58,855 nucleotides of DNA from positions 1-58,855 of IMG/VR virus record IMGVR_UViG_3300036915_000009; one strand, 5' to 3'. Below, one piece after another: positions 19,241 through 35,523 of the stretch; position 1 is the stretch's first letter; every line of letters begins with the position of its first letter. The stretch comes from a virus. The notes beneath the pieces were generated by a model. It ran no database searches and was not told the DNA's origin. It saw only the letters and a list, made by a program, of their open reading frames with translations. The translations under genes and the position numbers were made by a program.

Positions 19241-19267
19241 TGCATACCTCTCCTGCTGGGTGACAAA

Positions 19268-19284
19268 GAGGCGCGCCTACCTCC
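19268..19284 (-). promoter_or_regulatory. GGTAGGCGCGCC late leader element, copy 1
   Basis: On the minus strand GGAGGTAGGCGCGCCTC can fold with stem GAGG/CCTC and loop TAGGCGCG. It lies 28 nt upstream of the paralogue 1 start. The same core recurs at three other late gene starts. The surrounding 19241-19352 gap shows nothing else of note. Confidence 0.55.
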
Positions 19285-19356
19285 GCGATCGCGTCCCACT
19301 ATGACAGCCGCCCGGATGGCACTACAAAGGGCCGAGCCGGATCCGGTGCTTTTTAA

Positions 19357-19368
19357 GATCCATGGATC
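19357..19368. repeat. GATCCATGGATC palindrome, copy 3
   Basis: Exact copy lying at the very end of an open minus-strand frame that covers the tandem repeat, whose stop is at 19353-19355. It is 89 nt from the late leader element of the next gene downstream. Confidence 0.7.
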
Positions 19369-19428
19369 GGGTTTCGTGCCGGGTATTTGCTGCTGCTCGG
19401 CGCTAGGCTGATCGCTGTGAGTTGCGCG

Positions 19429-19611
19429 CTGCCATCACCGCCTACGCTCGGCTTCACGCTGCCATCGCCAGTCGTGCCCGCGCTGCCCGATCTGCCTGCG
19501 CTGCCCGCTGCGCCCGCTCTGCCTGCGCTGCCATCACCGCCTACGCTCGGCTTCACGCTGCCATCACCAGTCGTGCCTGCGCTGCCCGATCTGCCTGCGC
19601 TGCCCGCTGCG
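19429..19611 (-). repeat. 84-bp tandem repeat, collagen-like on the minus strand
   Basis: Two copies (19429-19512 and 19528-19611) differ at two bases and have a 99-nt period, 33 codons. On the minus strand the ORF 19353-19700 reads as Gly-X-Y-like triplets (GSAGRSGSAGTTGDG, SVKPSVGGDG). On the plus strand one frame is Pro/Leu-rich (ALPSPPTLGFTLPSP). The minus frame has no start of its own outside the spike gene but is in the +1 frame relative to it, beginning right at the spike stop. It could be a frameshift extension, a decayed gene or a recombination site. Confidence 0.5.
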
Positions 19612-19629
19612 TTCTGTCCGCTCGCTTGA

Positions 19630-20406
19630 TCAAACAGGCGAGACGAACAAGCTCGGGCAAGGCGGCGAAGAAGCGCCAGGCAGCAGCGCCACGCCAGCAT
19701 CCGCTTCGGCGCCCACGTATACGTTGCCCTTCAGCGTGATCTTCTGAGCGTTCACCACGAACTCGCCCGCGCTCATGCGCCCGAAGGTGCTGCCATCGCA
19801 TGACCACACGATGCCGGGATCGCCGCCGCCCGCGTCCTCGGTGAGGCTGAAGAAGACGCCGTCGCCATGGATCAGCGAGATCGAGCTATTGCCATCGGTT
19901 GGATCGATGCTGATGGCGTGGGCTTTGGTCGGTGCCCCGTCGCCGTCGAACTCATAAGGGACGTAGATCGTGGTCACGTTGCCCTTCTTGCTGCCCGTGT
20001 TGGCGGAGGTCATCGTGTGGGCGACGAACGCCCCACCGTAGCCACCAAACATCAGCTGACCCTTCGCTGGTGCTGACGTGCCGCCAGCGTTGATGGCGCG
20101 GTGGATCCTCAGATCTCGAAAGGCGAACGGCGTCAGTCCGTCCTCGGTGCGAGCCGCCAGTGCCTCCGCGAACAAGTCGCCTTCTGGTTCAAGTGGGCGG
20201 CCTACGATGCCGAGCGCGCTGTAAGTGTCTTGCTCGTGCGCCTGCTCGCCTTGTTCGTTGTCTTCCTCAGCGCCAGTTATTGCGCCGTTCGCATCAACGG
20301 CAAAACCAGCGATGCCGGCAACGTTGAAAAGGGTCGCCTTGTTCGTGCCCGCCACGCTGGAGGCGACCACTCGAACGAACTCGATCACTTGATTGAGAGC
20401 TGACAC
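19630..20406 (-). CDS. Putative baseplate central spike protein (gp45/gpV-like)
   Basis: The 258-aa product has an N-terminus like other spike or hub-associated proteins. It follows with GKKGNVTTIYVPYEF-type OB-fold character (here SKKGNVTTIYVPYEFDGDG) and a C-terminal segment IVWSCDGSTFGRMSAGEFVV, NAQKITLKGNVYVGAEADAG. Beta strands of this form build the trimeric spike below the hub. It lies a little after the gp44-like hub gene, as in Mu, with a small gene and a plus-strand gene between. Its stop is GTT-TGA, next to a +1 open frame. Confidence 0.6.
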   Translation of the reverse strand: MSALNQVIEFVRVVASSVAGTNKATLFNVAGIAGFAVDANGAITGAEEDNEQGEQAHEQDTYSALGIVGRPLEPEGDLFAEALAARTEDGLTPFAFRDLRIHRAINAGGTSAPAKGQLMFGGYGGAFVAHTMTSANTGSKKGNVTTIYVPYEFDGDGAPTKAHAISIDPTDGNSSISLIHGDGVFFSLTEDAGGGDPGIVWSCDGSTFGRMSAGEFVVNAQKITLKGNVYVGAEADAGVALLPGASSPPCPSLFVSPV

Positions 20407-20412
20407 CAGCCG

Positions 20413-20664
20413 TCACAATACCGCGTTGAGCGCTCGACGCACCAGAGCCCAGACGGAAGCCGAGCGGCGAGGGAAGTCCTCTACTCTCGCGCGCCGCTGA
20501 ACGGTGCTCGGCCTGCCTCGGCGCATGAGTTCCACCACGTAGTTACCGCGGGGCGCGTCCCCCGATCCGTCGCTTGCGGTGCCGTCGTTTGTGATCGCCA
20601 TGCGCCCGATCTCGGTGCTCTTGCCGGTACGACTGGAGTGCAGCTCGATCCGGACGATGAGCAT
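20413..20664 (-). CDS. Small conserved phage-type protein
   Basis: The 83-aa product begins MLIVRIELHSSRTGKSTEIGR, then MAITNDGTASD, GNYVVELMRRG and a basic helix. I recall this pattern of a short beta-sheet protein from other phage tail modules, but it has no function I know. It sits 6 nt before the spike gene and lies divergent to the plus-strand gene at 20817 with a 152-bp gap. Confidence 0.55.
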   Translation of the reverse strand: MLIVRIELHSSRTGKSTEIGRMAITNDGTASDGSGDAPRGNYVVELMRRGRPSTVQRRARVEDFPRRSASVWALVRRALNAVL

Positions 20665-20759
20665 AATTGCCCCACGATACGACCAAGATGGACAGGCCGA
20701 TCAGTTTTTTTTGTTCAGCCTGAGCACCGATCCATGTATTTGATCCAGGTTCAGGGCCA

Positions 20760-20810
20760 AGAGGGGAAACCAAGACCAAACCAACAACCAAGACCAACCA
20801 CGGAAGGGGG
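20760..20810 (+). promoter_or_regulatory. Leader with two ACCAAGACCA motifs
   Basis: The leader of the plus-strand gene at 20817 contains AAACCAAGACCAAACC and AACCAAGACCAACC, two copies of the motif that precedes accessory genes in 45-48 kb. A GGAAGGGGG ribosome site follows. The same 152-bp gap also holds a CCGATCCATGT string and a run of eight T on the plus strand (20705-20712), whose meaning is unclear. Confidence 0.45.
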
Positions 20811-20816
20811 CCAGCG

Positions 20817-22052
20817 ATGGCGTCCAGACAAAATACTAACGCCTCAGGTGGCAGCCCGAGGCGTCAGGTATCCGTGCGAGGAGCTACAGATACGTCGTCA
20901 ATTCGAGACGGACAATATGCTGCAGCTCGTCGCGCAGGCAAGAAAAACAACACACAAAGACAGTCCATGGGCCGGCTGCCACTCGCCCAGTTCAATCGGC
21001 GCGTCAAACGGGCGCTTGCGGCGGCTAGAGCCGTTTTGCGTGATGCCTGGGGAAGTGTACGCGAGCAGTCGAACCACGTCCTGAGAGCGCTGCTTCGCCT
21101 GCTTTTCCGCCATGGTGGGTTCGTTCTCGGTCAGCGGGTCGCTTACTCGGTGGAGCGTTTGGCCGAGGCGCTGGAGTGTAGCGAGCGGACCGTCTATCGG
21201 CACTTGGAGGTGTTGCGCGGCGAGCTGGCGGGGCTGATCCGGGTGGTGAAGATCGAAGCCGGAGAGCTGGCGCATGACGGCTGGCTCGCGCGGAAAAGTC
21301 ATCTTGAGTATGAGCTTCAGCCGGAAGCGCTCGCTCGCCTGACCCCTGACAACCCGTCACTGGGCAAGAGAGCAGCGGACAAGCGCACCCCTGACAACCG
21401 ATCAGCCGATCCATGTTTAGGCACTTCCACTCCTGCAACCCATCAACAAATCTTGGGCCTAAGCCAGGCGACTGCTCCTAATTTTGAGCATTCGACTGCC
21501 AGGAGGAAGGACAAACCGCGCGCCGCGACATACAACCCAACCGAGCCACCACCGCCACCCGAGCGGGTAGCAGAAGCGGAGGCCGCTATTCGCCAGCACC
21601 GAACGCTGGCAGAAGGCAAAGCGGCGGTCGAACACATCGCCCCCGAGGAACTCAGCGTCGCATTGGCCGCGCTGGACAGCTGCACCGAGCCGAGCCGAGC
21701 CGAGCGCCTGGCTTGCCTAGCGGAGGTCAGCAAGCTGGCGCTGCGCGACTCCAAACGCAACGGCCACGGCGTTGCCACGCTGCGCTATGCCTGGGGCGAG
21801 AACGGCGAGTGGGTTCGCGAGCGGCTAGCTCGGTTGCGCGAGGCGGAGCGCGAGGCGGAGCGCGAGGCGGAAGCTCGACAGTGCAACGCCCTGTTTGATC
21901 GGATCGAGCGCAACGCGCCGCGCCAGCCGCCAGTGCCCCGAGCCGTCCGCCGAGCAATCCGAAGGCCTTCCGTTTCGCCGAGCAACCAAGCGCGCCCCAC
22001 CATCGAGGAACTGACGGCGGGGCTTGCCATCGTGGAGGCAAGTTTGCGGTAG
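20817..22052 (+). CDS. Winged-helix protein encoded against the late operon
   Basis: The 411-aa product has a basic N-terminus, then residues about 95-140 form a winged-helix-type unit (GQRVAYSVERLAEALECSER, TVYRHLEVLRGELAGLIRVV). This is followed by a low-complexity Pro/Glu/Arg region and a C-terminal helix with ERLARLREAEREAERE. Replication initiators and transcription factors both have this layout, so its target cannot be stated. It lies between the spike and hub genes but on the opposite strand, with the accessory-type leader, so it probably has its own promoter. Insertion as a moron-like cassette is likely. Confidence 0.6.
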   Translation: MASRQNTNASGGSPRRQVSVRGATDTSSIRDGQYAAARRAGKKNNTQRQSMGRLPLAQFNRRVKRALAAARAVLRDAWGSVREQSNHVLRALLRLLFRHGGFVLGQRVAYSVERLAEALECSERTVYRHLEVLRGELAGLIRVVKIEAGELAHDGWLARKSHLEYELQPEALARLTPDNPSLGKRAADKRTPDNRSADPCLGTSTPATHQQILGLSQATAPNFEHSTARRKDKPRAATYNPTEPPPPPERVAEAEAAIRQHRTLAEGKAAVEHIAPEELSVALAALDSCTEPSRAERLACLAEVSKLALRDSKRNGHGVATLRYAWGENGEWVRERLARLREAEREAEREAEARQCNALFDRIERNAPRQPPVPRAVRRAIRRPSVSPSNQARPTIEELTAGLAIVEASLR

Positions 22053-22067
22053 CGTAGGCGGTTGGGT

Positions 22068-22136
22068 TGGCGGTATACAGTCCGCGCGGGCGGGGTCCGG
22101 GGGTCGAAAGCGTCCCCCCCCGTTTCCCTCCGGGCC
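22068..22136. terminator. GC-rich hairpin region after the plus-strand cassette
   Basis: The 98-bp gap between two convergent genes contains GGGGG-tcgaaagcgt-CCCCC with extra G/C runs on both sides. It could stop transcription from either side, though no clear T-run follows on the plus strand. Borders are approximate. Confidence 0.3.
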
Positions 22137-22150
22137 TTCCCCGCGACCTA

Positions 22151-23299
22151 CTACAGCACCCAAGTGCCTTGGCGCACGAGCGAGAGTGTTGTGGAGTCCG
22201 CATCGGATGCCGTGCGATTCATGGTGACCGCCTCCACGTAGTAAGCGCCGAGCGCGCCGCCCAGTTGCTCGATGATCACATCCACCACCGTGTCGGGCGA
22301 CCATGGCAGCAATTCGCTACCCTCGCGGTAGCTCAGGCCGTCCACGCTGACCGTGATCCGTTCGAGGCCGCGCGAGCGCAGCGAGAACTCGCGACGGGCG
22401 CGCCGCTCGGCAAGTTGTTTGGTTCGCACCGCCTCGTCAACGATGACAGCAGCTCGTCGGAAGCCGCGGGCGATCAGATCGGCGTTGAATTGAGTGGAGC
22501 TAACGCGCGCCCGGCTGAAGTCTCGGCCGCCGCCGATGCCGAACACCCCGAGCACAGTGGGCGCGTCGCTGACGTTCTGCTCGCGGCTGGCGCTGCGAAC
22601 ATTGTTGTACTGCCCGTTGGGCGCTCGGAAGCTGCGCAGCGTGGCGATAGGCTCCTGCGTATCGTCAGGGGCGGCGACCACGATGCGACCGTCCGCGCCA
22701 TCCCAATGCAGCAAGCCATGGCGCCTTAGATGCCGATCCACTGCGCTATAGACGGTTTCGGGCGGGTTGACTTTCGCCTGATCTTCTTTGAGCGGTTCGA
22801 GGTTCGGCGCTGTGCGCTGGCCGCGACTGGTGCGCCCCGTCATCAGATCGCGAGAGACATCCGCCTGGAAGTCGAAATCGACTTCCTCGAGCCCGATGGC
22901 TTCATAGCAACCGAGCACGAAATCCTTGATGCTGCTGCGCTTCAGCTGAAGACCCTGCGGCGCCGATGCTGCCACTGCGTCGGTCATGCGGGTTCGCACC
23001 ACGAATTGCTGTGTGGAACTCTGCCCCGAGTCCAGCGAGCTATTGCGTGCCTCCACGCGTCCGACGATGCGCGAACGGTCGTTGACGGTAACGTAGAAGC
23101 TAGAGCCGAGTTCGCAGGCCGCCTCAATGCGATTATACCCGGTATCATCGCCGAGCTCTAAGCTTGCTTCCGCCGGTCCCGTGATCGAGTGGCTGAGCGA
23201 GAAGCTGGTCCATTCGGAGAAATTGAAGTCGAAATCGCCCGCGTTCGATGGGGTGCCGAGCGCGTAAGCTCGAACGCTATCGATCAGCGACCCGCTCAC
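22151..23299 (-). CDS. Baseplate hub protein (Mu gp44 / gpP-like)
   Basis: The 382-aa product shows WTSFSLSHSITGPAEASLEL, VTVNDRSRIVGRVEARNSSL, a central charged region KRSSIKDFVLGCYEAIGLEE and PPETVYSAVDRHLRRHGLLHW. This order matches phage Mu gp44 and late-control D-type hub proteins that form the trimeric hub at the end of the tube. The start overlaps the preceding gene's stop by ATGA. Length is typical of the family. Confidence 0.82.
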   Translation of the reverse strand: MSGSLIDSVRAYALGTPSNAGDFDFNFSEWTSFSLSHSITGPAEASLELGDDTGYNRIEAACELGSSFYVTVNDRSRIVGRVEARNSSLDSGQSSTQQFVVRTRMTDAVAASAPQGLQLKRSSIKDFVLGCYEAIGLEEVDFDFQADVSRDLMTGRTSRGQRTAPNLEPLKEDQAKVNPPETVYSAVDRHLRRHGLLHWDGADGRIVVAAPDDTQEPIATLRSFRAPNGQYNNVRSASREQNVSDAPTVLGVFGIGGGRDFSRARVSSTQFNADLIARGFRRAAVIVDEAVRTKQLAERRARREFSLRSRGLERITVSVDGLSYREGSELLPWSPDTVVDVIIEQLGGALGAYYVEAVTMNRTASDADSTTLSLVRQGTWVL

Positions 23300-23658
23300 C
23301 GCGATGCCTTGGCTCTCTTCTTCGCCGCCCGCTTCGCCGCCCGCTTGCTGCGCTTGGCCTTGCGCTTCGGCGCCTTCGGCTCATCGCCAAACAAGAGGCA
23401 TCGGACGTCCAGGTCGAGCGCATCGGCGATAGCCGCCGCTTCTGCCAAGTTGAGTGCCACGGGGGGCTCGCCCAGCTCGCTCGCCTCCAGCTCTCGCACA
23501 AAAGCTGGCTCCAGCACGCCCTCACGATCGCGCTCGCATAGTTGGTCAGCAGACAGCCCCAGTTCCAGCCGCCGAGAGCGACACCGCACACCCATGCCGC
23601 CATAGAGAAAATATGCCCGGTTGGCGGGCGACTGTGGTTCATCGATCTGAGTTGCCAT
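23296..23658 (-). CDS. Helix-turn-helix-like small protein in the tail operon
   Basis: In this 120-aa product, residues about 20-85 read like an XRE-type helix-turn-helix: GVRCRSRRLELGLSADQLCE, then ALNLAEAAAIADALDLDVRC and LLFGDE. A lysine/arginine-rich tail (KAKRSKRAAKRAAKKR) follows. DNA-binding-like proteins are not expected between gp43 and gp44 in Mu. It may regulate late genes, or the fold may be reused for tail assembly. The start at 23658 is 4 nt after the gp43-like stop; the upstream GAGGCGAAG is a weak ribosome site. Confidence 0.6.
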   Translation of the reverse strand: MATQIDEPQSPANRAYFLYGGMGVRCRSRRLELGLSADQLCERDREGVLEPAFVRELEASELGEPPVALNLAEAAAIADALDLDVRCLLFGDEPKAPKRKAKRSKRAAKRAAKKRAKASR

Positions 23659-23662
23659 TGCT

Positions 23663-24613
23663 TCACCGCGGGGTGGTTTCGAATATTCGCACCACCTCAC
23701 CACGGGTCAACAGAAACGGATCGCCGACGCGGGACGCGTTCAGATCCAGCAGCTCCTCGGCGTCCTGATCGAAGCGAGCGGCGATCTCGAAGAGACTGGT
23801 CCGCTCGACGTCCACCACGAAGGCACGCACCCGGGGGCGGCTGCGGACCCGCTCATCTTCAGCCGCCGCTTCACGATCGAGCAGCTGCTGGAATTGTCGC
23901 GCCGTTTCGCTGCCACGCGGATCGGCAAATAGACCCTCGTCGCCCGCTTCCTTCCGCGCGGTTCTCACCACGCCTTGGATGATCCGGCGATGGGCTCGCG
24001 CCTGGGCGGCCACATCTGCCGAAGCCGCCCCGGGCGCTCTCATGAGCGTTTCGATCTCGCTTGCTGCCGTGCGCAGGCTGGCGATGCCATCGGACCACAC
24101 TCCACTCTTCTGAGCACTGAAAGTGGTTTGCTCGGCGAGCTTCCGAACGGTCGCGGTTACGGAAGGGGGTTCGAGGATGGAGCGATCCAGCGCGTCCTCG
24201 TTGTCCTGCAGAAACACCACATCCAAGATAGCGGCGTCATCTTCCTCCGGCATCTCGCGGCGGGTGTAGTCCACCACTCGGGCGCGGATCTCGCCCACCG
24301 TTGGGCACACCAGCGTTCCCGTCTCGTGGACGTCGAAGCTATCGATCATCCGCCGCAGCATGAAAGGGTAGAGTGGCTGGGGATTGTCCTCGATGCCGGG
24401 CTCTTCGATGGTGTTGGCGAAGATCATGGCCACTTGCCACTGGCGCGCTTTGCTGCCCGTGTCGTCCAGCTTGGCGCCGTTGCGACCGGGGCGCTCGTGA
24501 GTGACGATGCGGTTGCCACCCTGCTCTGTCACGCTGAGCACCGGAAACACGATCGGATCGAGCGAGCCTACGCGCCAGCGACCCGGCGGGTATTGAGCGA
24601 ATACAATGCCCAT
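23663..24613 (-). CDS. Mu gp43-like tail/DNA circularisation protein with LysM-like end
   Basis: The 316-aa product has N-terminal residues 1-110 (FPVLSVTEQGGNRIVTHERP, KARQWQVAMIFAN, PLYPFMLRRMIDSF) that match the DNA_circ_N-type domain of Mu gp43, a hub/distal-tube protein despite its name. A helical middle follows. The last 55 residues (FVVDVERTSLFEIAARFDQD, AEELLDLNASRVGDPFLL) look like a LysM-type module. It is adjacent to the tape measure gene and probably contacts it. Confidence 0.78.
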   Translation of the reverse strand: MGIVFAQYPPGRWRVGSLDPIVFPVLSVTEQGGNRIVTHERPGRNGAKLDDTGSKARQWQVAMIFANTIEEPGIEDNPQPLYPFMLRRMIDSFDVHETGTLVCPTVGEIRARVVDYTRREMPEEDDAAILDVVFLQDNEDALDRSILEPPSVTATVRKLAEQTTFSAQKSGVWSDGIASLRTAASEIETLMRAPGAASADVAAQARAHRRIIQGVVRTARKEAGDEGLFADPRGSETARQFQQLLDREAAAEDERVRSRPRVRAFVVDVERTSLFEIAARFDQDAEELLDLNASRVGDPFLLTRGEVVRIFETTPR

Positions 24614-26653
24614 TCAGTAGCCTCCCAGCGCTTGGCTCGGTCCCATTGCCATTGGCCCGCGCGTGCCTGGACCGGGATCCGCGTTGCCAGCCGCTCCCCT
24701 TGATCCAGGGTTGGCAAACGCAACGCGCAACGTGGTGCCGCCCATGGCGGACCTCACCGCCTGAGCGATGGCGCGCGCTGACTGATCGTCCAGGTTTACC
24801 TGCTGTTTTTTACCAGGGCGCGTTACAGGTTGCTCAGTTGGTTGTGGAGCGGTGGGCGTCGGGGTTGCTGGTGTGCCGGCTGCCTGCGCCTTCTCCAGCT
24901 TGTCAATATGGGCTTTCTTCCACTTCAGATCCTCCCGCGCCTTGGCGAGTTCCGTCTCCTCCATGCGGCGCTGATCGTCGCTCAGAAAAAGGCTGTTGCT
25001 GAAGCTTCCCAGTTCCTTTTCCTTGGCCGCGATGGCCTTCTCGGCGAAGCGAGCTTCGGCCCGTTCCTTGCTCAGCGACTTGCTCCTCCCAGCGAGCTTT
25101 GCGCGCGCCACCGAAATGCCACCAGTACTCTTCGCGTTCTCGTCCGCGTCCTTGCTGATTTTCTCGGCCGCCAGAGCGCCAGCAATTGCGACGGCTGCCA
25201 GAGCGCCGGCACCCTTGATCAGATTTCCGACCTTCATCCCGCCCACCACATGAGCCTGCGCGATGGTAGCAGCGGCGCCGGTCGCACCCGTCGCGTGCCC
25301 CGAGACAATACTGGCCATCATACTGGTGAGGAAGCCTTTCGCTGCCACGCCACCGAGCCCCAGCGTGCCCGCTAGGACGGGGTTTTTCGCAGCGAAGGAA
25401 ACAAAGTTCCCGAACAGCTTCGCGATCTCGGGCAGCGCAGCCGATAGATCTTCCATCGCTGTGAGTATTTCGGGAGAAGCGAAGGCCTGGTTCAAGTTTT
25501 CGAGCGCCACCCGAAGCCGCGCTTGCGGCTCGGTCGCCTTCTTCGCTGCTTCCTCCTGCAAAGCCGCTGCGTTGAGAGATGTCTTGCCGAACTGAGCAAT
25601 CGATTCGTCCAGCGAGCGCAGCGCTTGCTCGGTCGCTTCTTTGCCCCGCAAGCCGCCGGCCTTGGCTCGCTGCAGCGCTTCCTCGAAGGGCTCGGTGAAC
25701 AGAATGCGGAGCGCGTCCTTTTCTTCGGGGCCGATGAAAGCAGTCTGAAGCGCCTCCATTCCCTTCTTGCCGCGCGAGAGCATTACGCGCATCCGGGCTA
25801 GGAAGTCCTTTTCGTTGAGCAGCTTGCTAGCATCGATGCCGGCGATCTTGGCCATCGTCTTGAGCGTATTGGGGCTCCCGAGCTTCACGAGCATGTTTTG
25901 AATGCCGGACACTTGGCGACCCAAACCACCCATCTGAGCATCCGTGGCGTTCATGGCGCCCGAAAGGAACTCCAGCGCCCGCTTGCCCTCTAGCCCCGCC
26001 GTGATCAGTTTCGCCCCAACCACATCGATGACTTGGGCGAACGCTTCAAAATTGGGTCCACCTTGCTGCGCTTGCTCGTACACCTGCGCCAGCGCTTCCT
26101 TGGCTTCGGCGGCACTCAGCCCAAACTTACGCTGCATTTGTTGTGCGATGGTCGCTACCGTCTTGACCTCTTCGTTGGTCGCGGTGGCAGCCATGCCGAT
26201 GGCCTCCATCATTTCTTTGGTGAACTTCAGATCCTTGGTAGCGCCAAACACTTCCTCGAACGCGGTGGCCATCTCCTCGCTCGTGCGAGTGGTCTTGGAT
26301 GCTGAGCGCTCAACGATTTGCTGGATGTCTGCCGACTTGGTCATCGCCCCGGTGGCCGTCTGCACCCGGAAGGCGAGCGTCGAATAAGTCGAGTTGAGTT
26401 GCACCGCGTTTTTCAACGCAGCGCCAGCGCTGAACGCACCGCCGAGCGTGGCGATGGCCGTCACCCCTCGCTTCGCAGCGCTTGCTAGGCCGCCTAGTTC
26501 CTTCTTGGCTCCCGCAAGGCCCGCCTTGAGATGCTTGGCAGCATTCTTTCCCGTCACGCCCATGCGGCGCAACGAATCGCCGGCTCGCTTCATCCCAGCA
26601 AGGAATTGCGAGTTGTTCAGTGTGAGCTTAACGCTTGCTTCGCGCTGCGCCAT
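24614..26653 (-). CDS. Tail tape measure protein
   Basis: The 679-aa product has an N-terminal SVKLTLNNSQFLAGMKRAGDS, typical of tape measures. A long Ala-rich helical region follows, then a hydrophobic segment near residues 440-490 (GTLGLGGVAAKGFLTSMMAS, GAGALAAVAIAGALAAEKI) that may insert in the host membrane, and a charged coiled-coil and low-complexity end. By the usual 1.5 angstrom per residue rule a tail near 100 nm is expected. It follows the frameshifted chaperone genes, as in most contractile phages. Confidence 0.85.
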   Translation of the reverse strand: MAQREASVKLTLNNSQFLAGMKRAGDSLRRMGVTGKNAAKHLKAGLAGAKKELGGLASAAKRGVTAIATLGGAFSAGAALKNAVQLNSTYSTLAFRVQTATGAMTKSADIQQIVERSASKTTRTSEEMATAFEEVFGATKDLKFTKEMMEAIGMAATATNEEVKTVATIAQQMQRKFGLSAAEAKEALAQVYEQAQQGGPNFEAFAQVIDVVGAKLITAGLEGKRALEFLSGAMNATDAQMGGLGRQVSGIQNMLVKLGSPNTLKTMAKIAGIDASKLLNEKDFLARMRVMLSRGKKGMEALQTAFIGPEEKDALRILFTEPFEEALQRAKAGGLRGKEATEQALRSLDESIAQFGKTSLNAAALQEEAAKKATEPQARLRVALENLNQAFASPEILTAMEDLSAALPEIAKLFGNFVSFAAKNPVLAGTLGLGGVAAKGFLTSMMASIVSGHATGATGAAATIAQAHVVGGMKVGNLIKGAGALAAVAIAGALAAEKISKDADENAKSTGGISVARAKLAGRSKSLSKERAEARFAEKAIAAKEKELGSFSNSLFLSDDQRRMEETELAKAREDLKWKKAHIDKLEKAQAAGTPATPTPTAPQPTEQPVTRPGKKQQVNLDDQSARAIAQAVRSAMGGTTLRVAFANPGSRGAAGNADPGPGTRGPMAMGPSQALGGY

Positions 26654-26819: not shown

Positions 26820-27319
26820 AAAGGGGCGGGGGTTTTCTCCCCCGCGATGCGAACAATGGTCTGCCAGAGTTGCTCGCCATCGAGTTCGCCGAACCGCGGA
26901 TCGAGCATCTCCACCCAGGCATCGTAACGTCCCCACACCTCCGACAGTGTTTGCCAGTCGTAAGTGTCCAACAGCGCCTTGGCGTCTATGACGTGCTGAT
27001 CGAACGTGCCGGGGTCGCGAATCGCGAAGGCGAGGATCGAATAATTCTCCAGATCGTCCAGGTAGTCTTTGTCTCGATCCAGGTCGAGCTTCAGTTCGGC
27101 GGCAAGTGCTCTCGCCTGGATCCGCGCTCGAAACCGCTGCTGGTTGGTCACGTTGCGCAGCCGGACGTCCACCTCTTTCAAGTCGCCGTTTTTCGTGCGG
27201 CGTTTGAGCGTTGCTGGCAGGTGCAGCACCTCGTTGTGCTCTTCGACACCAAGAGCCTGCCAGTTGTCCAGCGCGATCCGCACCGCGCGATCTTCGGCAG
27301 GCTCCTCAGCGTCACTCAT
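26672..27319 (-). CDS. Tail assembly chaperone (Mu gp41-like)
   Basis: The 215-aa product has a body DKDYLDDLENYSILAFAIRD, DAKALLDTYDWQTLSEVWGR, MLDPRFGELDGEQLWQTIVR with a short variable end. Proteins in this position bind the tape measure during tail assembly. The codon pair at CCCTTTA near residue 166 allows a -1 shift into an overlapping frame, giving a second, longer product. The zero-frame end (SPNAPSWVQPSPTSPL) is low-complexity, as in many unshifted forms. Confidence 0.8.
   Translation of the reverse strand: MSDAEEPAEDRAVRIALDNWQALGVEEHNEVLHLPATLKRRTKNGDLKEVDVRLRNVTNQQRFRARIQARALAAELKLDLDRDKDYLDDLENYSILAFAIRDPGTFDQHVIDAKALLDTYDWQTLSEVWGRYDAWVEMLDPRFGELDGEQLWQTIVRIAGEKTPAPLVGMVGPAQYSCIVLMAEEALRSPNAPSWVQPSPTSPLDSSPPTNSETS
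26819..26825 (-). promoter_or_regulatory. Slippery heptamer CCCTTTA
   Basis: On the minus strand the zero-frame codons are GCC CCT TTA, which fits X-XXY-YYZ (C-CCT-TTA) for a -1 shift. After slippage the frame continues open to 26628. It lies between the tail tube and tape measure genes, the standard site of a programmed frameshift. Confidence 0.65.
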
Positions 27320-27337
27320 GACTTTGCAAGTTCCGCC

Positions 27338-27721
27338 TTACAGGCGGACTTCCTCCATGTGTCCGATGAACGTTGCCGACCCCTTGGTGGCGTCGTCCAG
27401 TGGCGCGTCCAGATCGCAGCCTTGATATGCGCCGTTCACGGTCCAGGCGACATTTGGACCCTTCGCGCGCAGCTGGCGGACGGTGCCCGTTTTCACGTCC
27501 CGCCAATAGTTGCGCTCGGGGCCGTCCTCGTCGATCGCGAAGTCGAACGAGATCGAGCATTCTTCGGTGCCGAGCGTGATGCCGGCTCCCTTGCGCCGCA
27601 GGGTGTGAACCTGCTTCGCATTGTTCGTCAGCGTGATCGTGAAGTTTGTTACCTGGACCAGGTCGCCGTTGCCCTGCGCCAGAAAAACCTTCGGGTAAAT
27701 CAGTTGTTCGCCGTCTGCCAT
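27338..27721 (-). CDS. Tail tube protein
   Basis: The 127-aa product, ADGEQLIYPKVFLAQGNGDL, VQVTNFTITLTNNAKQVHTL, SISFDFAIDEDGPERNYW and GTVRQLRAKGPNVAWTVNG, shows the compact beta-barrel composition of Mu-type tube proteins. It polymerises into the inner tube of the contractile tail. It follows the sheath gene and precedes the chaperone, the canonical order. Confidence 0.8.
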   Translation of the reverse strand: MADGEQLIYPKVFLAQGNGDLVQVTNFTITLTNNAKQVHTLRRKGAGITLGTEECSISFDFAIDEDGPERNYWRDVKTGTVRQLRAKGPNVAWTVNGAYQGCDLDAPLDDATKGSATFIGHMEEVRL

Positions 27722-27754
27722 TGGATGTGCCTCTCGTTAAGTGCCTTCCGCCGT

Positions 27755-29263
27755 TCAGGCGACCTTGCTTGCGACCACGCCGAGCTTCGCGAGCGGCTTG
27801 ACGATCGCGAGCGGTAGGAAAATGTTCACCTGGGTCGGGTCCACGTCATCGATGGCCACCACCAGCTCATCGTTCTCGATGGATGCATCCAGTGCGGGCT
27901 TCTGCACCACGCCCGAGCGAGTCCAGAACGTCAGCCGCGAGATCACGAACTCTTCAACGTCCCTTCGCTCCACCACTCCGGGGGGCAATGCATCAGCGCC
28001 CGGCGGGAGATCTTCCGAGATCGAAGCGTTGGCGAACTGCTGCGGAAGCACGGTTCGCATATCGCGAGCAACCGCATACATGCCGAGCGTGTCCGTCATG
28101 TCGAAAGCGCGGTAATCCTGGGTCGCGCCGTCCAGCGAGTGGGTCGTGATGGGCCGCACCACCACCACCTGGCTCGTCCCTTGTGCCACCTGCAGCGGAG
28201 TGACGCCGTTCTCCAGAAGGTCCTCGACCTCGGCCGCCGTGAGGCGCTCGGCTGAAACATCTCGTGGACCGTAGAGGTTATGCACGTTGCCGATCCGGTT
28301 GTAGTTCGGTCGCAGCGCAGCGAAGGCGAGCGCGTCGCCAGCTTCGGACGCCGCCAGTTCGCACGGCAGATCGTCGAAGGTCTGCCCAAATACGTATTCG
28401 CAGGCTTCGTTATTGCGGTCGATGGCGCCTGCCTTCACGTCCGCGATCGCGCCCGTGTGACCGATCCAAGCCACCTGGAGCAACGCATCAGCGCCGCTTT
28501 CGTAGGTATTGATGTGATCGGTCAAACGCTCGGCGTTGCTGCTGCTGGTGGCGGCCGCATCGGCGTTGCTGGTGCAGCCGATGATCGCCGCGTATTCGGT
28601 GGTTGAGATGGCGGTGAGCGCGGTCGTCCAATCGGGCTCGGTCGTGCCGGATGCAAGCGCGGTTGGGTTGGCTGCGATCGTGATGCCACCTCCGCCTTCG
28701 ATGACCGAAGCGAAGATCCTTACATCATTGCCCCAAGGGCCAGCGACCTTCGCGGTGTAGTCGATGTCGCCGGTTCCACCATCGGCAACCGTGACGAACA
28801 GATCGTTTGCCTGTTGGTTGATGTAACTCACCGCGCGGGTCACGAAAGCGGTATTCGCTTCGCCGCTGAGCCATGGGACATCGATGGATCGACCGTGGAT
28901 CCGAAAGCGGATCGTGCTGTTCTCGGTGGCGGTGCCGCTAAAGGTCTGGGTCTCCGAAGCCGCGGCGCCGCCGCTCGCTGTTGGGGCGAGCACGTCCAGC
29001 TTCCCCAAGCCATTGCGCTCGAAGAAGCGCTTCGCCGCGAGATGGCCTGGCGTGCCTGCGCCGAGCGCTGTGGCCACGTCATCGGCGCCGAAGCACTGGC
29101 GTACCTCGGTGTCTACTGTGATGTCGCCCGCGGAACTCTTGGGGGCGATGATCAATGCTCTCAGGGCTGCGGTGCCTGGGTTGGCTACTGCAGCGAGCAG
29201 ATTGACGGTGAGGAAAAGTCCTGGAGTCTTGACGCTACTCGCTACCGCTTTCGGGATGGTCAT
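27755..29263 (-). CDS. Tail sheath protein (Mu gpL-like)
   Basis: The 502-aa product has an N-terminal VASSVKTPGLFLTVNLLAA, a middle with NDLFVTVADGGTGDIDYTA and GPWGNDVRIFASVIEGG, RPNYNRIGNVHNLYGPRDV, and a conserved C-terminal KPALDASIENDELVVAIDD plus DPTQVNIFLPLAIVKPL. These match Mu-type sheath subunits that contract to drive the tube. GGACAAGCGC precedes the ATG, a string also seen before the decoration gene, and a GGTAGGCGCACC element lies 24-41 nt upstream. The start lies inside the preceding gene's C-terminus. Confidence 0.88.
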   Translation of the reverse strand: MTIPKAVASSVKTPGLFLTVNLLAAVANPGTAALRALIIAPKSSAGDITVDTEVRQCFGADDVATALGAGTPGHLAAKRFFERNGLGKLDVLAPTASGGAAASETQTFSGTATENSTIRFRIHGRSIDVPWLSGEANTAFVTRAVSYINQQANDLFVTVADGGTGDIDYTAKVAGPWGNDVRIFASVIEGGGGITIAANPTALASGTTEPDWTTALTAISTTEYAAIIGCTSNADAAATSSSNAERLTDHINTYESGADALLQVAWIGHTGAIADVKAGAIDRNNEACEYVFGQTFDDLPCELAASEAGDALAFAALRPNYNRIGNVHNLYGPRDVSAERLTAAEVEDLLENGVTPLQVAQGTSQVVVVRPITTHSLDGATQDYRAFDMTDTLGMYAVARDMRTVLPQQFANASISEDLPPGADALPPGVVERRDVEEFVISRLTFWTRSGVVQKPALDASIENDELVVAIDDVDPTQVNIFLPLAIVKPLAKLGVVASKVA

Positions 29264-29618
29264 CGCGCTTGTCCTGTCGTTTGACGGGAGGTGCGCCTAC
29301 CTCCGATGGGTTGCTAGCTAGTGTAGTTGTGGCTCGGGCCTGTTTGGCCTTCAGCTGGGGGGCTTGGCTCGCTCGCCACTCGTCTCCGGTGCGAGCTCGC
29401 AGCGAGCCGTTCGCGATGGCTCGCTGATACTCACGACGATAACGCCGAAGCTCAGCGTAAGGGATGGCGACGATCTGTTCGGGGAAGTAGTTGATGCCGT
29501 TCGAGCCATCGAACCGCCGAGCGGCTCCGATGAGCACCCGCGAGGCGCCGAAGCGCGCCACTGGCTTGCCAGGCACCGAGCTGACGAACAGACCGAAGGG
29601 CTCCGAAGGATCCGCCAT
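29235..29618 (-). CDS. Mu gp38-position small protein
   Basis: The product is 127 aa from the ATG at 29618; a TTG at 29657 would add 13 residues. The N-terminal half (PFGLFVSSVPGKPVARFGAS, GINYFPEQIVAIPYAEL) is beta-rich, and the C-terminal half is basic and Gln/Ala-rich. It sits between gp37-like and sheath genes, as Mu gp38 does. Its last codons contain the late leader element and overlap the sheath start by 29 nt, so sheath signals are embedded in its coding sequence. Confidence 0.55.
   Translation of the reverse strand: MADPSEPFGLFVSSVPGKPVARFGASRVLIGAARRFDGSNGINYFPEQIVAIPYAELRRYRREYQRAIANGSLRARTGDEWRASQAPQLKAKQARATTTLASNPSEVGAPPVKRQDKRDDHPESGSE
29287..29304 (-). promoter_or_regulatory. 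GGTAGGCGCACC late leader element, copy 2
   Basis: On the minus strand GGAGGTAGGCGCACCTCC forms a 6-bp stem (GGAGGT/ACCTCC) with loop AGGCGC. It is 24 nt before the sheath ATG and encoded within the end of the upstream ORF. Compared with the other copies, a base change in the core is matched by a change in the arms that keeps the stem paired. Confidence 0.6.
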
Positions 29619-29661
29619 GGCCGACAAACTACGCCATGCCAGCATCGGCGTCCACAACGGG

Positions 29662-30642
29662 TTACGGATCGTCCGTCATGTCGACCTCCACGTCCACGAC
29701 AGTGAGATCACCGGTTGGCTCGGGCGCCTCCCCGCCAGGTAACGCCTGCGCGATCGCGGAAGTGATCCATGTGTTGAAGGTTCGCGAGTCGATGGGCTGC
29801 AGGGTCTGATTGACGCGCAGGCTGAGGAAATAGATGTAGTGCTTCGCTCCTCGTGCCAACCGATCCCGGTTGACGATCTCGACCCCGGCGCCCACGCTGG
29901 AGAGCGCTTCGCCGTCATCGTTGCATTGGCGATCGGTCAACAGGCGCGTGGCCGCCTGCAGGATCAAAAGGCCTTCCTGACGCCGTTTGGTGTCCCCTTC
30001 CAGTCGCCCGCTGATGGCGTAGAGGCTGAAGGTCTCCCGCATGAAGCGCACCCGCCGAGCGCCACGGGTCGAGCCCTGGCGCAGGCCGGCCGTGGTGCCT
30101 TCGGCTGGCTCGGTGCTCTGCCACGCCAGCATCAGCGCGGGGAAGCGGGCGAGCAGGCTCGCGAAAATGTCCTTCGATGGGTTGGCGGCATCCAGATCCT
30201 CGAAGAAAGCGACCTCCTTCACCAGTTGCCCCGTGTCCGCGCCGTCCACCATGGCAGCGTCGAGCGTGGCGGTTGCGACGAACCCTTCGACTTCAGGCGA
30301 AAAGCGCAGGGTGGTGCCGTCCGCCAAGTTGTGGCGAGCGCCGCCCACGTTGCTCGTGATGGCGACCGATCCCGTCGCGCCGCCTGAGATAGTCCACGCT
30401 CCACCCGTACCGTTCGCGTTCACGGTGGCGGGGTTGCGAGTGACCTTGAACACGAGATCGCTGCGCTCCTGGCCGCCGATCACAGGCACCAGATACGTAT
30501 TGGGCTGCAGCACCTTGTCCGCGCCAGCGTCGGCGGTGACGGTGACAGTGCCGGTCGAACGCACCCCGCACATAGGCGAGAGTTGCGCGAGGATGGCTCT
30601 GCCGAGCTTTTCGATTGTGTTCAGAGCAAGGGACTCGGTCAT
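29662..30642 (-). CDS. Mu gp37-like protein
   Basis: In this 326-aa product the C-terminal half (EVAFFEDLDAANPSKDIF, FPALMLAWQSTEPAEGTT, TFSLYAISGRLEGDTKRRQ, LRVNQTLQPIDSRTFNTW) matches the gp37 (DUF1834-type) family thought to act in tail assembly. The N-terminal half carries a beta-rich domain with VTVTADAGADKVLQPNTYLV and GTTLRFSPEVEGFVATATLD, absent from the shorter Mu protein, so this is an enlarged version. The start overlaps the gpG-like stop by ATGA. Confidence 0.7.
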   Translation of the reverse strand: MTESLALNTIEKLGRAILAQLSPMCGVRSTGTVTVTADAGADKVLQPNTYLVPVIGGQERSDLVFKVTRNPATVNANGTGGAWTISGGATGSVAITSNVGGARHNLADGTTLRFSPEVEGFVATATLDAAMVDGADTGQLVKEVAFFEDLDAANPSKDIFASLLARFPALMLAWQSTEPAEGTTAGLRQGSTRGARRVRFMRETFSLYAISGRLEGDTKRRQEGLLILQAATRLLTDRQCNDDGEALSSVGAGVEIVNRDRLARGAKHYIYFLSLRVNQTLQPIDSRTFNTWITSAIAQALPGGEAPEPTGDLTVVDVEVDMTDDP

Positions 30643-31127
30643 GCCACATGGCCCCGGCTAGGCGGCGCTTCGCTCGGCGATGTGATGCGGGCGACGAGCA
30701 TCTCCGCCATATCGGCCACGTCCTGCTCGAACGCTTGCGTTTCGATGTCGAAGAAGTCGCGCAGCGGGATCTTTTTCCGCGGCTGATGACTGGCATGGTA
30801 CTTCGCATAAGGCACATTGGTGAACACCTCGGCGAAGTCGACGCCATGATCGGGCGTGATGCTGCCCACCAGGTTGCCGGTGTCCTGCAGCAGCTGTGGG
30901 TTGCCGAGCCAGCGGCGCCCTCTAGGCTTGGGCAGTCCCCTGCGCTGCCACCAGAAGTCAGGCCAGGAGCCGAAGCCCTTGGTCTCGAATTGATCGAGCA
31001 CGTATTGGTGGAGTGACTCGGCGGTGACCGCCAGCACTTCCTGGATGCTTAGCTGACCGCGCCGCGTCAGCAAGCCGAGCACATCGCCCATTTCGCGGAA
31101 ATGGAGGTCGATTGTATCGGCCATCAA
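30639..31127 (-). CDS. Virion morphogenesis / tail completion protein (gpG-like)
   Basis: The 162-aa product has VTAESLHQYVLDQFETKGFG, SWPDFWWQRRGLPKPRGRR, LQDTGNLVGSITPDHGVDF and VFTNVPYAKYHASHQPRKKIP. They match the phage virion morphogenesis family (PF05069), which includes Mu gpG and P2 gpS. It helps join tail to head. It is ATGA-coupled to gp36-like and gp37-like genes. Confidence 0.8.
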   Translation of the reverse strand: MMADTIDLHFREMGDVLGLLTRRGQLSIQEVLAVTAESLHQYVLDQFETKGFGSWPDFWWQRRGLPKPRGRRWLGNPQLLQDTGNLVGSITPDHGVDFAEVFTNVPYAKYHASHQPRKKIPLRDFFDIETQAFEQDVADMAEMLVARITSPSEAPPSRGHVA

Positions 31128-31630
31128 AAGCCACCCGGTCCGTTGCGATCGTTGGGGTTGTTTGGATCGCGATTGAAAATGAACGTGGGCGTGGCGGTGC
31201 TCTTTTCCCCGCGCAACGTGCTGTTGATGCCAGCTCCACCGCTCTCCAGTTCCAGGCGGCTGCGGATCTCGCCCCTGCTCATCGCCTTCAGCTCGGCTCG
31301 CGAGCGTTGCCCCAGGCCGTCGAACGGACCTTTGCCTTCATCGTCCAACCACTCTGTTTTGGCTTCGCCAGCGAGCTGCGCACAAATGCCAGCCCAGGCG
31401 CGGACGATCTGGGAGTCAGTCACCAGCAAGGCCAGCTGGGCGAGAGTGAAACCCTTGCCCAGCAGGATGCCGGTAACGACGTCGTTGGCGTCATTGATGA
31501 TCGCTTCCAGCCGAGTCTCGTCGGTGCCCGCCACGAGGCCATCGCCATCGAAGTCGAACAGCTGCACCACGCGCTGGGGCGTGAAGCGGTCCTCGAGCTT
31601 GCTCCGATCACCAAACGCAATCGACGCCAT
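31124..31630 (-). CDS. Mu gp36-like head-tail connector (DUF1320)
   Basis: The 168-aa product starts AFGDRSKLEDRFTPQRVVQL and continues ETRLEAIINDANDVVTGILL, GFTLAQLALLVTDSQIVRAW and AGICAQLAGEAKTEWLDDEG. The helical pattern and length match gp36/DUF1320 proteins acting at the neck. The C-terminus is Asn/Pro/Gly-rich. The start is 4 nt after the upstream gene. Confidence 0.78.
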   Translation of the reverse strand: MASIAFGDRSKLEDRFTPQRVVQLFDFDGDGLVAGTDETRLEAIINDANDVVTGILLGKGFTLAQLALLVTDSQIVRAWAGICAQLAGEAKTEWLDDEGKGPFDGLGQRSRAELKAMSRGEIRSRLELESGGAGINSTLRGEKSTATPTFIFNRDPNNPNDRNGPGGF

Positions 31631-31634
31631 GCGA

Positions 31635-32036
31635 TCAGCCCAGCAGGTTCGCGCCCGGAGGCACGTGAGACGGGGTTACGCTCATCGCTGGCAGCGAACT
31701 CGGATGAACGGGCATTGGAAGGCCGAGATCGCGATGCGTGATCGGCCCGAACTTGATGCCGTCTGCCTCCGCCGCCTTCCGCACTGGCGCCGGTACTTTG
31801 TCGTACTGAGCGCCGCGGTAAACGTGGACGCGGCGACCTTGCACGAGCCCGATCCAGTTGGTCTGAGCCACGTTGCCGGCCTGTGTCAGGTGGACGTTTG
31901 GCTCGGGCTTGAAATCATACCGAGGCGCGCGCTTCTGCTGGCCTGGCAGCGAGGGACTTGCCGCCATGGGCTGGGGCTCGCTCTCCTCGTCGGTGCTGGC
32001 GTTCTCTGGGCGGACTTGGTTTTTCTTGTTTGCCAT
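31635..32036 (-). CDS. Hypothetical structural-region protein
   Basis: The 133-aa product has a disordered, charged N-terminus (KKNQVRPENASTDEESEPQP) and a compact C-terminal part (NWIGLVQGRRVHVYRGAQYD, KVPAPVRKAAEADGIKFG). The ATG at 32036 follows AAAAGGACCCC. It lies between a terminator and gp36, the slot of Mu gp35, to which its size is similar; a homology claim is not justified from sequence alone. Confidence 0.6.
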   Translation of the reverse strand: MANKKNQVRPENASTDEESEPQPMAASPSLPGQQKRAPRYDFKPEPNVHLTQAGNVAQTNWIGLVQGRRVHVYRGAQYDKVPAPVRKAAEADGIKFGPITHRDLGLPMPVHPSSLPAMSVTPSHVPPGANLLG

Positions 32037-32068
32037 GGGGTCCTTTTCGGGGGTTGTGTGGAAAAGAG

Positions 32069-32113
32069 AAAGGCCGCGAAACCACCGCGTGGGAGCGAGC
32101 TTTCGCGGCCTTT
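32069..32113 (-). terminator. Intrinsic terminator after the capsid region
   Basis: A 13-bp perfect stem AAAGGCCGCGAAA/TTTCGCGGCCTTT (32069-32081 with 32101-32113) is followed on the minus strand by a T-rich tract, TTTCTCTTTTCC. It lies downstream of the capsid and the small membrane ORF and just ahead of the next gene. It would attenuate read-through so that capsid transcripts exceed tail transcripts. This is the clearest intrinsic terminator in the window. Confidence 0.8.
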
Positions 32114-32145
32114 GCTGGGGTGCAGTCAGTCGCACCCGCTTGGGA

Positions 32146-32295
32146 TCACTTCATCTGATCACAAGGCGTCGGCGAATAGGCCATCTCACTGCCCACTTCA
32201 AAGCCGAGAGCACTAGCGATGGCGAGCAGGACAGCCACGATCGTCCGCACAATTGCCGGGCGCATTGGTTTGCTGGGTGGATTCACGGTTGTCAT
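32146..32295 (-). CDS. Small membrane protein downstream of the capsid gene
   Basis: The 49-aa product has one hydrophobic segment IVRTIVAVLLAIASALGF after a Pro-rich N-terminus and a short polar end with one Cys. AAAGGGACAGCCCC precedes the ATG, similar to capsid-region ribosome sites. It lies between the capsid stop (30 nt upstream) and the terminator, so it would share the strong capsid transcript. Function unknown; candidates include a holin-like or superinfection factor. Confidence 0.6.
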   Translation of the reverse strand: MTTVNPPSKPMRPAIVRTIVAVLLAIASALGFEVGSEMAYSPTPCDQMK

Positions 32296-32325
32296 GGGGC
32301 TGTCCCTTTCGCTTGGGGGGAGGGG

Positions 32326-33429
32326 TTACTGAATGGTGTTGATCAGGATGCCGCCAACGTTGTTTGCGACCATCTTCACCTGCTCGGCATGGCCGGAGGC
32401 GAGGAAGGCGCCACCGTGCAAGCCACGGCGGTCCAGCTGGAACTCGCGACTGGTGAAGCCATTTCCACTCGGCCCACGCCTGCGGAAAGTCTTGCACGTC
32501 ATGATGTCCTCGCCGGTGAGTGGTGTGCCAGCGGGGGTGCCCGTCGCGATCACATTGTCGGTCAGGATGTAGTCCAGAGCTCCAGTGCTGGGGTTCAGCA
32601 CCTTGCCGGCGACCACGTGGAACGGCGGAAGCCCTGGGATCTGGAAGTCCATGTTGTTCGCTGCGGCCGTTGCTGCAGCAGCGCCAGCGCCCGGTGCTCC
32701 ATCGCCCAGCATGGTGCGAAGGTGATCTCGCACCGCCTCGCTGCGAATGAAGTGATGGGCCACCGCTGGGTTCAGCCAGAGGTCGGTCACTGGCTGCGCT
32801 GATGCCTGGATCAGATCAAATATATCGCTGACGGGATCGCCATTGGCTTGCGAGTTCCACTCCACTCCGCTGGAGATGGTGAATTGGTTGCCTGACGCCC
32901 AGTTCGCAGCAGTGCTGAGCAGGCCGCCCGTGCCGAATACGCGAATCTCGCGATCGAGCGCCAGCGCCCATGCAATGCGCCGGCCCACCGCGGCCCGAAC
33001 GTCATAGAGCCCATTTCCTTCGTTGGCGTTCTCCTCAGTTACCGCCGGAATGAAGCCGCCGAGCGCGCGTTCCTGCACCCGGTAGGTGTCCAGCGATGAC
33101 TCGGGATCCACTTCGGCGATGTCTGCCTGGATCGAGCTGAGCACGTTGATTTGCTGGAAGGCATTGTTCAGACCGAACACTCGAAACTGGTCGGTGTCCT
33201 TGCCAACCAGCATGATCGGACACGCCTCGTCCGCTCGGTAACCCGGTGGTCTGTAGCCAGCCATCAGGGTGTCGACCTCTTCGGAGATCGTCACGTCAGA
33301 CGGCGACAGAGCCAGGTTGATCACATCGCCAGCGCGCCCAAGTCCGGGTGCGTCGGCTACGAGGCGGACGGTCATCCCGTCATTTCCCCCCGAGCGTGGG
33401 GGGGCCGCGAGGGCAGCGCTTGTTACCAT
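32326..33429 (-). CDS. Major capsid protein
   Basis: The 367-aa product has VDTLMAGYRPPGYRADEACP, NNAFQQINVLSSIQADIAEV, LGGFIPAVTEENANEGNGL, VRAAVGRRIAWALALDREIR and a C-terminal LDRRGLHGGAFLASGHAEQV. This E-loop/spine-helix/P-domain order fits a HK97-fold capsid, and the position fits Mu gpT. The ATG at 33429 follows AAGGAAGAATACC; a longer in-frame start at 33453 adds unlikely residues. Its 95-bp leader has the AscI-like element and a G-rich repeat, and its mRNA ends at the terminator at 32069. Confidence 0.82.
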   Translation of the reverse strand: MVTSAALAAPPRSGGNDGMTVRLVADAPGLGRAGDVINLALSPSDVTISEEVDTLMAGYRPPGYRADEACPIMLVGKDTDQFRVFGLNNAFQQINVLSSIQADIAEVDPESSLDTYRVQERALGGFIPAVTEENANEGNGLYDVRAAVGRRIAWALALDREIRVFGTGGLLSTAANWASGNQFTISSGVEWNSQANGDPVSDIFDLIQASAQPVTDLWLNPAVAHHFIRSEAVRDHLRTMLGDGAPGAGAAAATAAANNMDFQIPGLPPFHVVAGKVLNPSTGALDYILTDNVIATGTPAGTPLTGEDIMTCKTFRRRGPSGNGFTSREFQLDRRGLHGGAFLASGHAEQVKMVANNVGGILINTIQ

Positions 33430-33456
33430 GGTATTCTTCCTTTCGGATCCCAAGCG

Positions 33457-33475
33457 GGGTGGCGCGCCTACCGAG
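33457..33475 (-). promoter_or_regulatory. GGTAGGCGCGCC late leader element, copy 3
   Basis: On the minus strand CTCGGTAGGCGCGCCACCCC lies 27-46 nt before the capsid ATG. Pairing here is GGT/ACC around AGGCGCGCC, a different stem from the other copies, so the core sequence rather than a fixed stem may be what is recognised. Confidence 0.55.
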
Positions 33476-33496
33476 CCCCAGAGTGTTTTCTAAAGT

Positions 33497-33520
33497 GGGT
33501 TTGGGTTTGGGTTTGGGGGG
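33497..33520 (+). repeat. Telomere-like G-rich repeat, candidate G-quadruplex
   Basis: The plus strand reads GGG-TTT repeated three times and then six G, fulfilling the G3N3 rule for a four-tetrad-tract quadruplex. It begins 4 nt past the decoration gene's stop and lies within the capsid leader. For minus-strand transcription the G-rich strand is the template. Confidence 0.6.
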
Positions 33521-33524
33521 TGGA

Positions 33525-33914
33525 TCAGGAGTCCAGCTGACCGCGCTGGATGTCGACCTCGATAACGTCACCGTCATCGTCGGCGGCGGTGGCTGCGTAG
33601 CCGAGGATGTATTCACCCGCGGCGGCCACAAAACCTTTGCCGTCTGTGCCACCGGTCACTGGCTCGCCAATGGCGATCGCTTCGCCTGCTTCGACCTTGC
33701 CCCGATTGTTGTGTTGAACATCACCCGTATAGCCATTGAGCACCTCCGCCATGGTGACGCCGTCAATCGGCGCAGTGCCATCGGTGGCCGGGGCGATGGA
33801 GTCGACGGTGGTGCTCTTTATGACTAGGCGCAGGGCCGAGATGGTCGACCCGGTGCCGTTGTACCCGTGGCGGATGTCGCCGCTATCGGCAACAATTGCT
33901 CTCGCTGAAGTCAT
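33525..33914 (-). CDS. Capsid decoration (cement) protein
   Basis: The 129-aa product contains TMAEVLNGYTGDVQHNNRGK, VEAGEAIAIGEPVTGGTDGK and GFVAAAGEYILGYAATAADD, the pattern of DUF2190-like capsid cement proteins that cap HK97-fold shells. It has its own GGTAGGCGCGCC leader element and a GGGACAAGCGCC ribosome region. It lies between protease/scaffold and capsid genes, as usual for such proteins. Confidence 0.72.
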   Translation of the reverse strand: MTSARAIVADSGDIRHGYNGTGSTISALRLVIKSTTVDSIAPATDGTAPIDGVTMAEVLNGYTGDVQHNNRGKVEAGEAIAIGEPVTGGTDGKGFVAAAGEYILGYAATAADDDGDVIEVDIQRGQLDS

Positions 33915-33961
33915 GGCGCTTGTCCCTTTTTTCTTTGGGGGGTTTGAAGTTTTTGAGTCAT

Positions 33962-33981
33962 CGAAGGCGCGCCTACCCTCG
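33962..33981 (-). promoter_or_regulatory. GGTAGGCGCGCC late leader element, copy 4
   Basis: On the minus strand CGAGGGTAGGCGCGCCTTCG forms a 6-bp stem (one G-T pair) around loop TAGGCGCG, 48-67 nt before the decoration protein ATG. The 87-bp gap between the protease/scaffold stop and this gene holds nothing else recognisable. Confidence 0.6.
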
Positions 33982-34001
33982 AAGCTGCTGCAGTGCGGTG
34001 C

Positions 34002-35441: not shown

Positions 35442-35507
35442 GCGTTCAAGTCTACGGACGGAACGTGCTCGCTCGCAATGCAAGGGGCCGATTGACGCCC
35501 CTTTCGT

Positions 35508-35519
35508 GATCCATGGATC
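35508..35519. repeat. GATCCATGGATC palindrome, copy 4
   Basis: Exact copy, beginning 4 nt after the stop of the portal gene, the same offset as copy 2 after its gene. It lies in the 82-bp gap before the protease gene, so it may act on transcription passing from head-assembly genes into the protease gene. Confidence 0.75.
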
Positions 35520-35523
35520 GCGC

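Follow-up and report, generated by a model that had tools for sequence, protein, structure and literature searches.

A recurrent hairpin ahead of virion genes as a putative mRNA control site in a group of uncultivated tailed phages

Several late genes of one uncultivated phage are preceded by the same short sequence, which raises the question of whether that sequence acts as DNA, for example as a late promoter, or as a structured part of the late mRNA. The window analyzed here is a whole IMG/VR virus record (G000) of 58,855 b, from a GC-rich phage with a contractile tail. Its gene set comprises sheath, tape measure, baseplate wedge, capsid, protease, portal-MuF, terminase, RecE-like exonuclease and DnaB helicase, and the minus strand is the late-gene strand. 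There is no close named phage, the nearest reaching only 26-30% in the sheath. A single 972-aa ORF at 35524-38442 (-) matches both portal and MuF-like minor head protein, and two DNA methyltransferase genes, of Dam type and C5 cytosine type, lie at 2217-2837 (+) and 57452-58561 (-).

A preliminary description of this DNA reported a repeated core ahead of late genes at four sites, and this held up: GGTAGGCGCRCC was found four times in the window against 0.03 expected, and four copies were reached in 0 of 100 shuffles. All four cores are on the minus strand, at 19270-19281, 29290-29301, 33461-33472 and 33966-33977, which is 2-4 nt away from the positions first given; the copy at 29290-29301 differs by one base (GGTAGGCGCACC). 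They do stand before start codons, at a measured spacing of 26-51 nt rather than 24-67 nt. The core is part of a hairpin that stands 35-60 nt ahead of start codons and has a stem of about 5-8 bp closed by the hexaloop AGGCRC, and a scan for this hexaloop with a stem turned up a fifth copy, at the first position listed below, that had been missed. The copies and the genes that they precede are as follows.

34763..34780, minus strand: hairpin AGTCGG[AGGCGC]CCGGCT before the nested scaffold start; covariance model score 27.2 bits
34002..34736, minus strand: scaffold-like gene, 244 aa, nested in frame in the protease ORF, internal ATG at 34736, homologous in relatives
33961..33982, minus strand: hairpin TCGAGGGT[AGGCGC]GCCTTCGA before the decoration gene, non-coding; good stem
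33525..33914, minus strand: small head/decoration protein, 129 aa, phrog_673
33456..33479, minus strand: core copy GGGGctcGGT[AGGCGC]GCCaCCCC before the capsid gene, non-coding; 18.6 bits
32326..33429, minus strand: major capsid protein, phrog_1005
29287..29304, minus strand: hairpin GGAGGT[AGGCGC]ACCTCC before the sheath gene; good stem, 28.9 bits
27755..29263, minus strand: tail sheath protein, phrog_165
19267..19284, minus strand: hairpin GGAGGT[AGGCGC]GCCTCT before the 189-aa gene, non-coding; fair stem, 25.2 bits
18671..19240, minus strand: 189-aa gene, no PHROG match

Three copies had been assigned to short stems, and such stems are present at the sheath, decoration and 189-aa genes; the capsid stem is weak, with only 3 contiguous pairs and an offset GGGG/CCCC. 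AGGCGC is the commonest hexaloop in the window on stems of at least 6 bp, with five hairpins against three for the next loop, and AGGCRC hexaloops on such stems number 0.37 on average, and at most 2, in 60 shuffles. One of these five hairpins, at 42127 (+), is unconnected with any gene start; the five do not include the capsid copy. As first described, one of the original copies lies inside coding sequence: this is the sheath copy, which falls within the 3' end of the ORF before it (29235-29657).

The fifth copy places its loop 38 nt ahead of the in-frame internal ATG within the protease ORF (34002-35708, minus strand), which matches phrog_328 as a whole. The gene that appears to begin at this ATG has its own start in the ingroup relatives as well, and we infer that it encodes the scaffold because of its position; the arrangement is similar to that of lambda C/Nu3. 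The 189-aa gene has a tandem paralogue at 18080-18670 (-), 50% identical, and within this pair (18080-19240) a hairpin stands before the first gene only.

Relatives were gathered from IMG/VR, about 20 contigs by sheath and capsid queries and 4 more by the DNA pattern of the scaffold form. A portal query found no relatives, and the sheath and capsid alignments found no prophage relatives in bacterial genome contigs. In about ten related contigs the hairpin occurs 35-65 nt before the starts of the same virion genes, namely scaffold, sheath, decoration protein and capsid, and once before baseplate J (wedge). Of 12 distinct ingroup contigs that extend over the scaffold start, 11 carry the hairpin there. 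The twelfth, G007 (with its near-copy G008), has a 6-bp hairpin there with another loop, AGACGT; this structure, CGTCGG[AGACGT]TCGACG at G007 38437 (+) and G008 2258 (+), may be a version of the element that has diverged. Ahead of the sheath gene, copies with GAGG-type stems are found in G001, G002, G003, G006 and L102, and copies with G-rich stems and the loop AGGCAC in G004, G011 and G009. The G017 sheath copy, GAGGT[TGGCGC]GCCTC, is the only one of all the copies whose loop departs from AGGCRC.

The sheath-upstream element is absent from G005, G007 and the deeper relatives. On the sheath tree, two forks of which lack resolution, the presence or absence of the element needs two changes, a pattern that would fit an old element which G005 and G007 have lost. 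Decoration copies (G000, G006 and L102) and capsid copies (G000 and G019) are absent from most relatives and come and go. The baseplate-wedge copy is found in G006 only and is on the other strand. The wedge gene of G006 (43312-44933, minus strand) is opposite in strand to the sheath gene, as it is in G001, G003 and G017; wedge and sheath share one strand in the window, and the tail block has therefore been rearranged. A covariance model, put forward earlier as a check together with a search of viral databases, recovered these copies. Copies score at least 21.6 bits, except the window capsid copy, while the scaffold copies of G004 and G011, which have the loop AGGCAC and two stem mismatches, are missed by the model. 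Matches in the same score range at L006 1115, L097 3656 and L030 10983 are probably unrelated to the element, and AGGAGGCGC before genes at G006 27143 and L102 13864 is a plain Shine-Dalgarno sequence. The element is real and wider than first noted, and its function is putative.

The stems are one argument that the element works as RNA. The paired stem changes of the preliminary description are borne out by compensatory changes on both sides in 5 of the 6 stem pairs. The covariation score is 0.652 for the full set of copies, a set chosen partly by pairing, as against 0.191 when shuffled and at most 0.167 when slid; for this reason the count was redone on orthologous sites alone, giving 0.255 versus 0.111 shuffled at the scaffold (1/500) and 0.238 versus 0.126 shuffled at the sheath (5/500). 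Sense-strand stem cells comprise 122 Watson-Crick pairs, 14 G-U and 2 A-C, in a set again chosen partly by pairing. An excess of G-U over A-C is what folding of the sense RNA would give, though G-U pairs were permitted in the search.

These results bear directly on the possibility that the element is a late promoter or another protein-binding site on DNA. Its repetition upstream of late genes in one orientation would suit such a site, as would a mildly raised A+T content between -28 and -16, the only upstream feature resembling a motif. However, a scan for promoters of the sigma-70 type found 0 sites with -35/-10 hexamers in three regions, sense-strand wobble pairs are tolerated, and the arms change in compensation around a fixed loop, when a bound DNA site would be expected to keep its arms. 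Arms that vary around a fixed loop are the opposite of a dimer-bound DNA palindrome. A DNA element is thus improbable. Of the two functions first suggested, the late promoter found no support and the structured RNA did: stem changes are compensatory, the same loop persists both in non-coding leaders and in two different reading frames, the element recurs before virion genes in about ten relatives, and no Rfam family matches it.

The reading frames also speak to the possibility that conserved peptides (E-x-G-A-P-R and S-E-A-P-G) and a high GC content simply yield hairpin-like DNA. At the sheath and the scaffold, the copies do translate into recurrent peptides, and GC-rich hexaloop hairpins are frequent; the other exact matches to the pattern in IMG/VR are coding coincidences, and on this ground an occurrence of the element outside the clade was rejected. 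Yet the sheath and scaffold copies, both coding, carry the same loop in different codon frames, and the three wobble positions at each are fully conserved, compared with 0.32-0.41 upstream (a lower bound, as the comparison is ungapped). Six further copies lie in non-coding leaders, which already disfavors a protein constraint, and so does the excess of the core over expectation. We regard coincidence as very improbable.

How the RNA folds is less uniform. When only the local context is folded, 22 of 25 copies form the hairpin, as might also happen while the RNA is being transcribed; in full leaders that include the start region it is seldom the favored fold (P<0.2 in most copies). No copy is followed by a T run, and no minus-strand terminator-like site coincides with a copy, so that intrinsic termination finds no support. 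An H-type pseudoknot between the loop GGCRC and a downstream GYGCC, assessed by eye, is plausible for scaffold copies; it was rejected for the element as a whole, the partner being missing from most sheath, decoration and capsid leaders.

A hairpin that forms locally would also suit a processing or stability site, which would mark or protect the 5' end of a cleaved late mRNA and allow each abundant cistron, the nested scaffold included, to be translated from its own stable transcript. Placement before single cistrons within a long late block and before a nested start agrees with this, and the sequence just 5' of the non-coding copies is AC-rich and probably open. Nevertheless, a generic stabilizing hairpin needs no fixed loop, and the loop here is nearly invariant. 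We consider such a site rather unlikely.

Alternatively, the element could be a two-state switch, in which its 3' half pairs with the ribosome-binding site and a ligand or protein decides between the hairpin and a masked start. Scaffold-type copies do pair with CGGGTGCC by the start, with 8 of 9 at or below 0.03 relative to shuffled start regions, and the G006 baseplate copy likewise pairs with its start region. In the scaffold type the competing fold would mask this RBS-like sequence, which is why a switch is suggested there. The complementarity of hairpin GGCGCCCG to CGGGTGCC is seen at L026/G001 3314 (-), G003 38953 (-), G006 18961 (+) and other scaffold leaders, and it extends to as many as 11 pairs in the G006 baseplate copy (44933, minus strand). 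On the other side, the window's own scaffold copy (0.127) does not stand out, nor do most sheath, decoration and capsid leaders; the scaffold copies are orthologues and therefore not independent; and the signal is weaker when other genes' start regions serve as the control (mean percentile 0.14). A masked ribosome-binding site was discarded as a general property of the copies, since outside the scaffold type it did not reach significance, and we consider a switch unlikely.

The reading that we prefer, with a probability of roughly 0.5, is a shared mRNA operator that acts on the translation, or the mRNA processing, of abundant virion cistrons and is read through its loop. The element would be a cis-acting hairpin on the late mRNA, repeated before cistrons needed in quantity (scaffold, decoration protein, capsid and sheath). 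Its AGGCRC loop would be recognized by a factor acting in trans, most likely an RNA-binding protein of the phage or its host. Bound upstream of the ribosome-binding site, this factor would set the output of each cistron, either by altering ribosome access or through mRNA processing or stabilization at the hairpin. A trans-acting reader of the loop is made likely by a loop change that one subclade shows at two sites. At loop position 5 most genomes carry G and the G004/G009/G011 clade carries A; G004 and G011 have this A at both the sheath and the scaffold sites, which are separated by about 7 kb and differ in codon position. Such a parallel change is what a single reader of the loop would impose, but as one event in one clade it is suggestive only. 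Recurrence, position, strand, compensatory stems, conserved loop and the same loop change at two sites are direct observations, from which the trans factor and its effect on translation or mRNA processing are inferred.

Against an operator stand the full leaders in which the hairpin is seldom favored, the weak capsid stem in the window, the patchy decoration and capsid copies, and the two relatives, G005 and G007, that have no hairpin before the sheath gene. A comparison of gene content between long relatives with and without the element brought out no candidate for the trans factor. The RecE-like exonuclease is the only gene present in 6/6 long relatives with the element and 0/3 without it, and it was set aside, those three being fragments or distant. 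A small RNA that pairs with the loop is another possible partner. More speculatively, there might be a virion-assembly regulon in which one phage RNA-binding protein reads AGGCRC ahead of all four kinds of gene (scaffold, decoration, capsid and sheath) and so matches synthesis to assembly; this reader could be a structural protein in its free form, for instance the scaffold. Overall, the operator ranks first, followed by the processing or stability site, the two-state switch, the DNA element and, last, coincidence.

One loop motif on many mRNAs with one protein reader is the layout of CsrA/RsmA-type regulons, in which CsrA requires a loop with GGA that mostly coincides with the Shine-Dalgarno sequence. 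The element would share this layout; unlike CsrA sites, its AGGCRC loop has no GGA and stands upstream of a separate ribosome-binding site. The closest architecture is that of the T4/RB69 gene 43 operator, whose hairpin sits about 40 nt ahead of the start codon and has a loop conserved in related phages; the T4 and RB69 operators differ in length and share their top ten bases (PMC3014915). In the gene 32 leader of T4, a pseudoknot provides a structure 67 nt upstream of the start (PMC3014915). The upstream hairpin (35-65 nt here) and the conserved loop are common to the gene 43 operator and the present element. However, the former has a UAAC-like loop and serves the self-control of one replication gene (DNA polymerase mRNA), whereas here an AGGCRC loop precedes several virion genes, with some copies within coding sequence. 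With a different loop, different genes and several sites, the element is not a member of the gene 43 operator family. In cluster K mycobacteriophages, the SAS/ESAS, a short asymmetric repeat GGGATAGGAGCCC, lies upstream of many gene starts in one orientation; SAS sit immediately at the start codon, and the authors saw little evidence that the extended repeats form a hairpin in mRNA (PMC3203893). This is a likeness of layout only, as the element here lies 35-65 nt upstream, has a covarying stem and differs in sequence from GGGATAGGAGCCC.

The statement that no described family resembles the element agrees with Rfam 15, whose covariance models gave 0 matches at the gathering threshold in the whole window and, in 29200-34900, chance-level matches only, away from the copies, with E up to 5. 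A literature search, largely confined to openly available papers, found no paper with an AGGCRC loop or a shared hairpin before phage virion genes, and the element is apparently undescribed.

In this group of uncultivated tailed phages, the element is probably a control site on mRNA. Tailed phages make very unequal amounts of virion proteins from long late transcripts, by means that mostly lack an explanation. Coupling of this kind has a precedent in the scaffold of P22, which controls itself post-transcriptionally. With its small size and defined loop, the motif is suited to simple reporters. If the reading is true, a loop motif common to the leaders of the most abundant virion proteins, a nested scaffold start among them, would offer direct access to the question of how these amounts are set.
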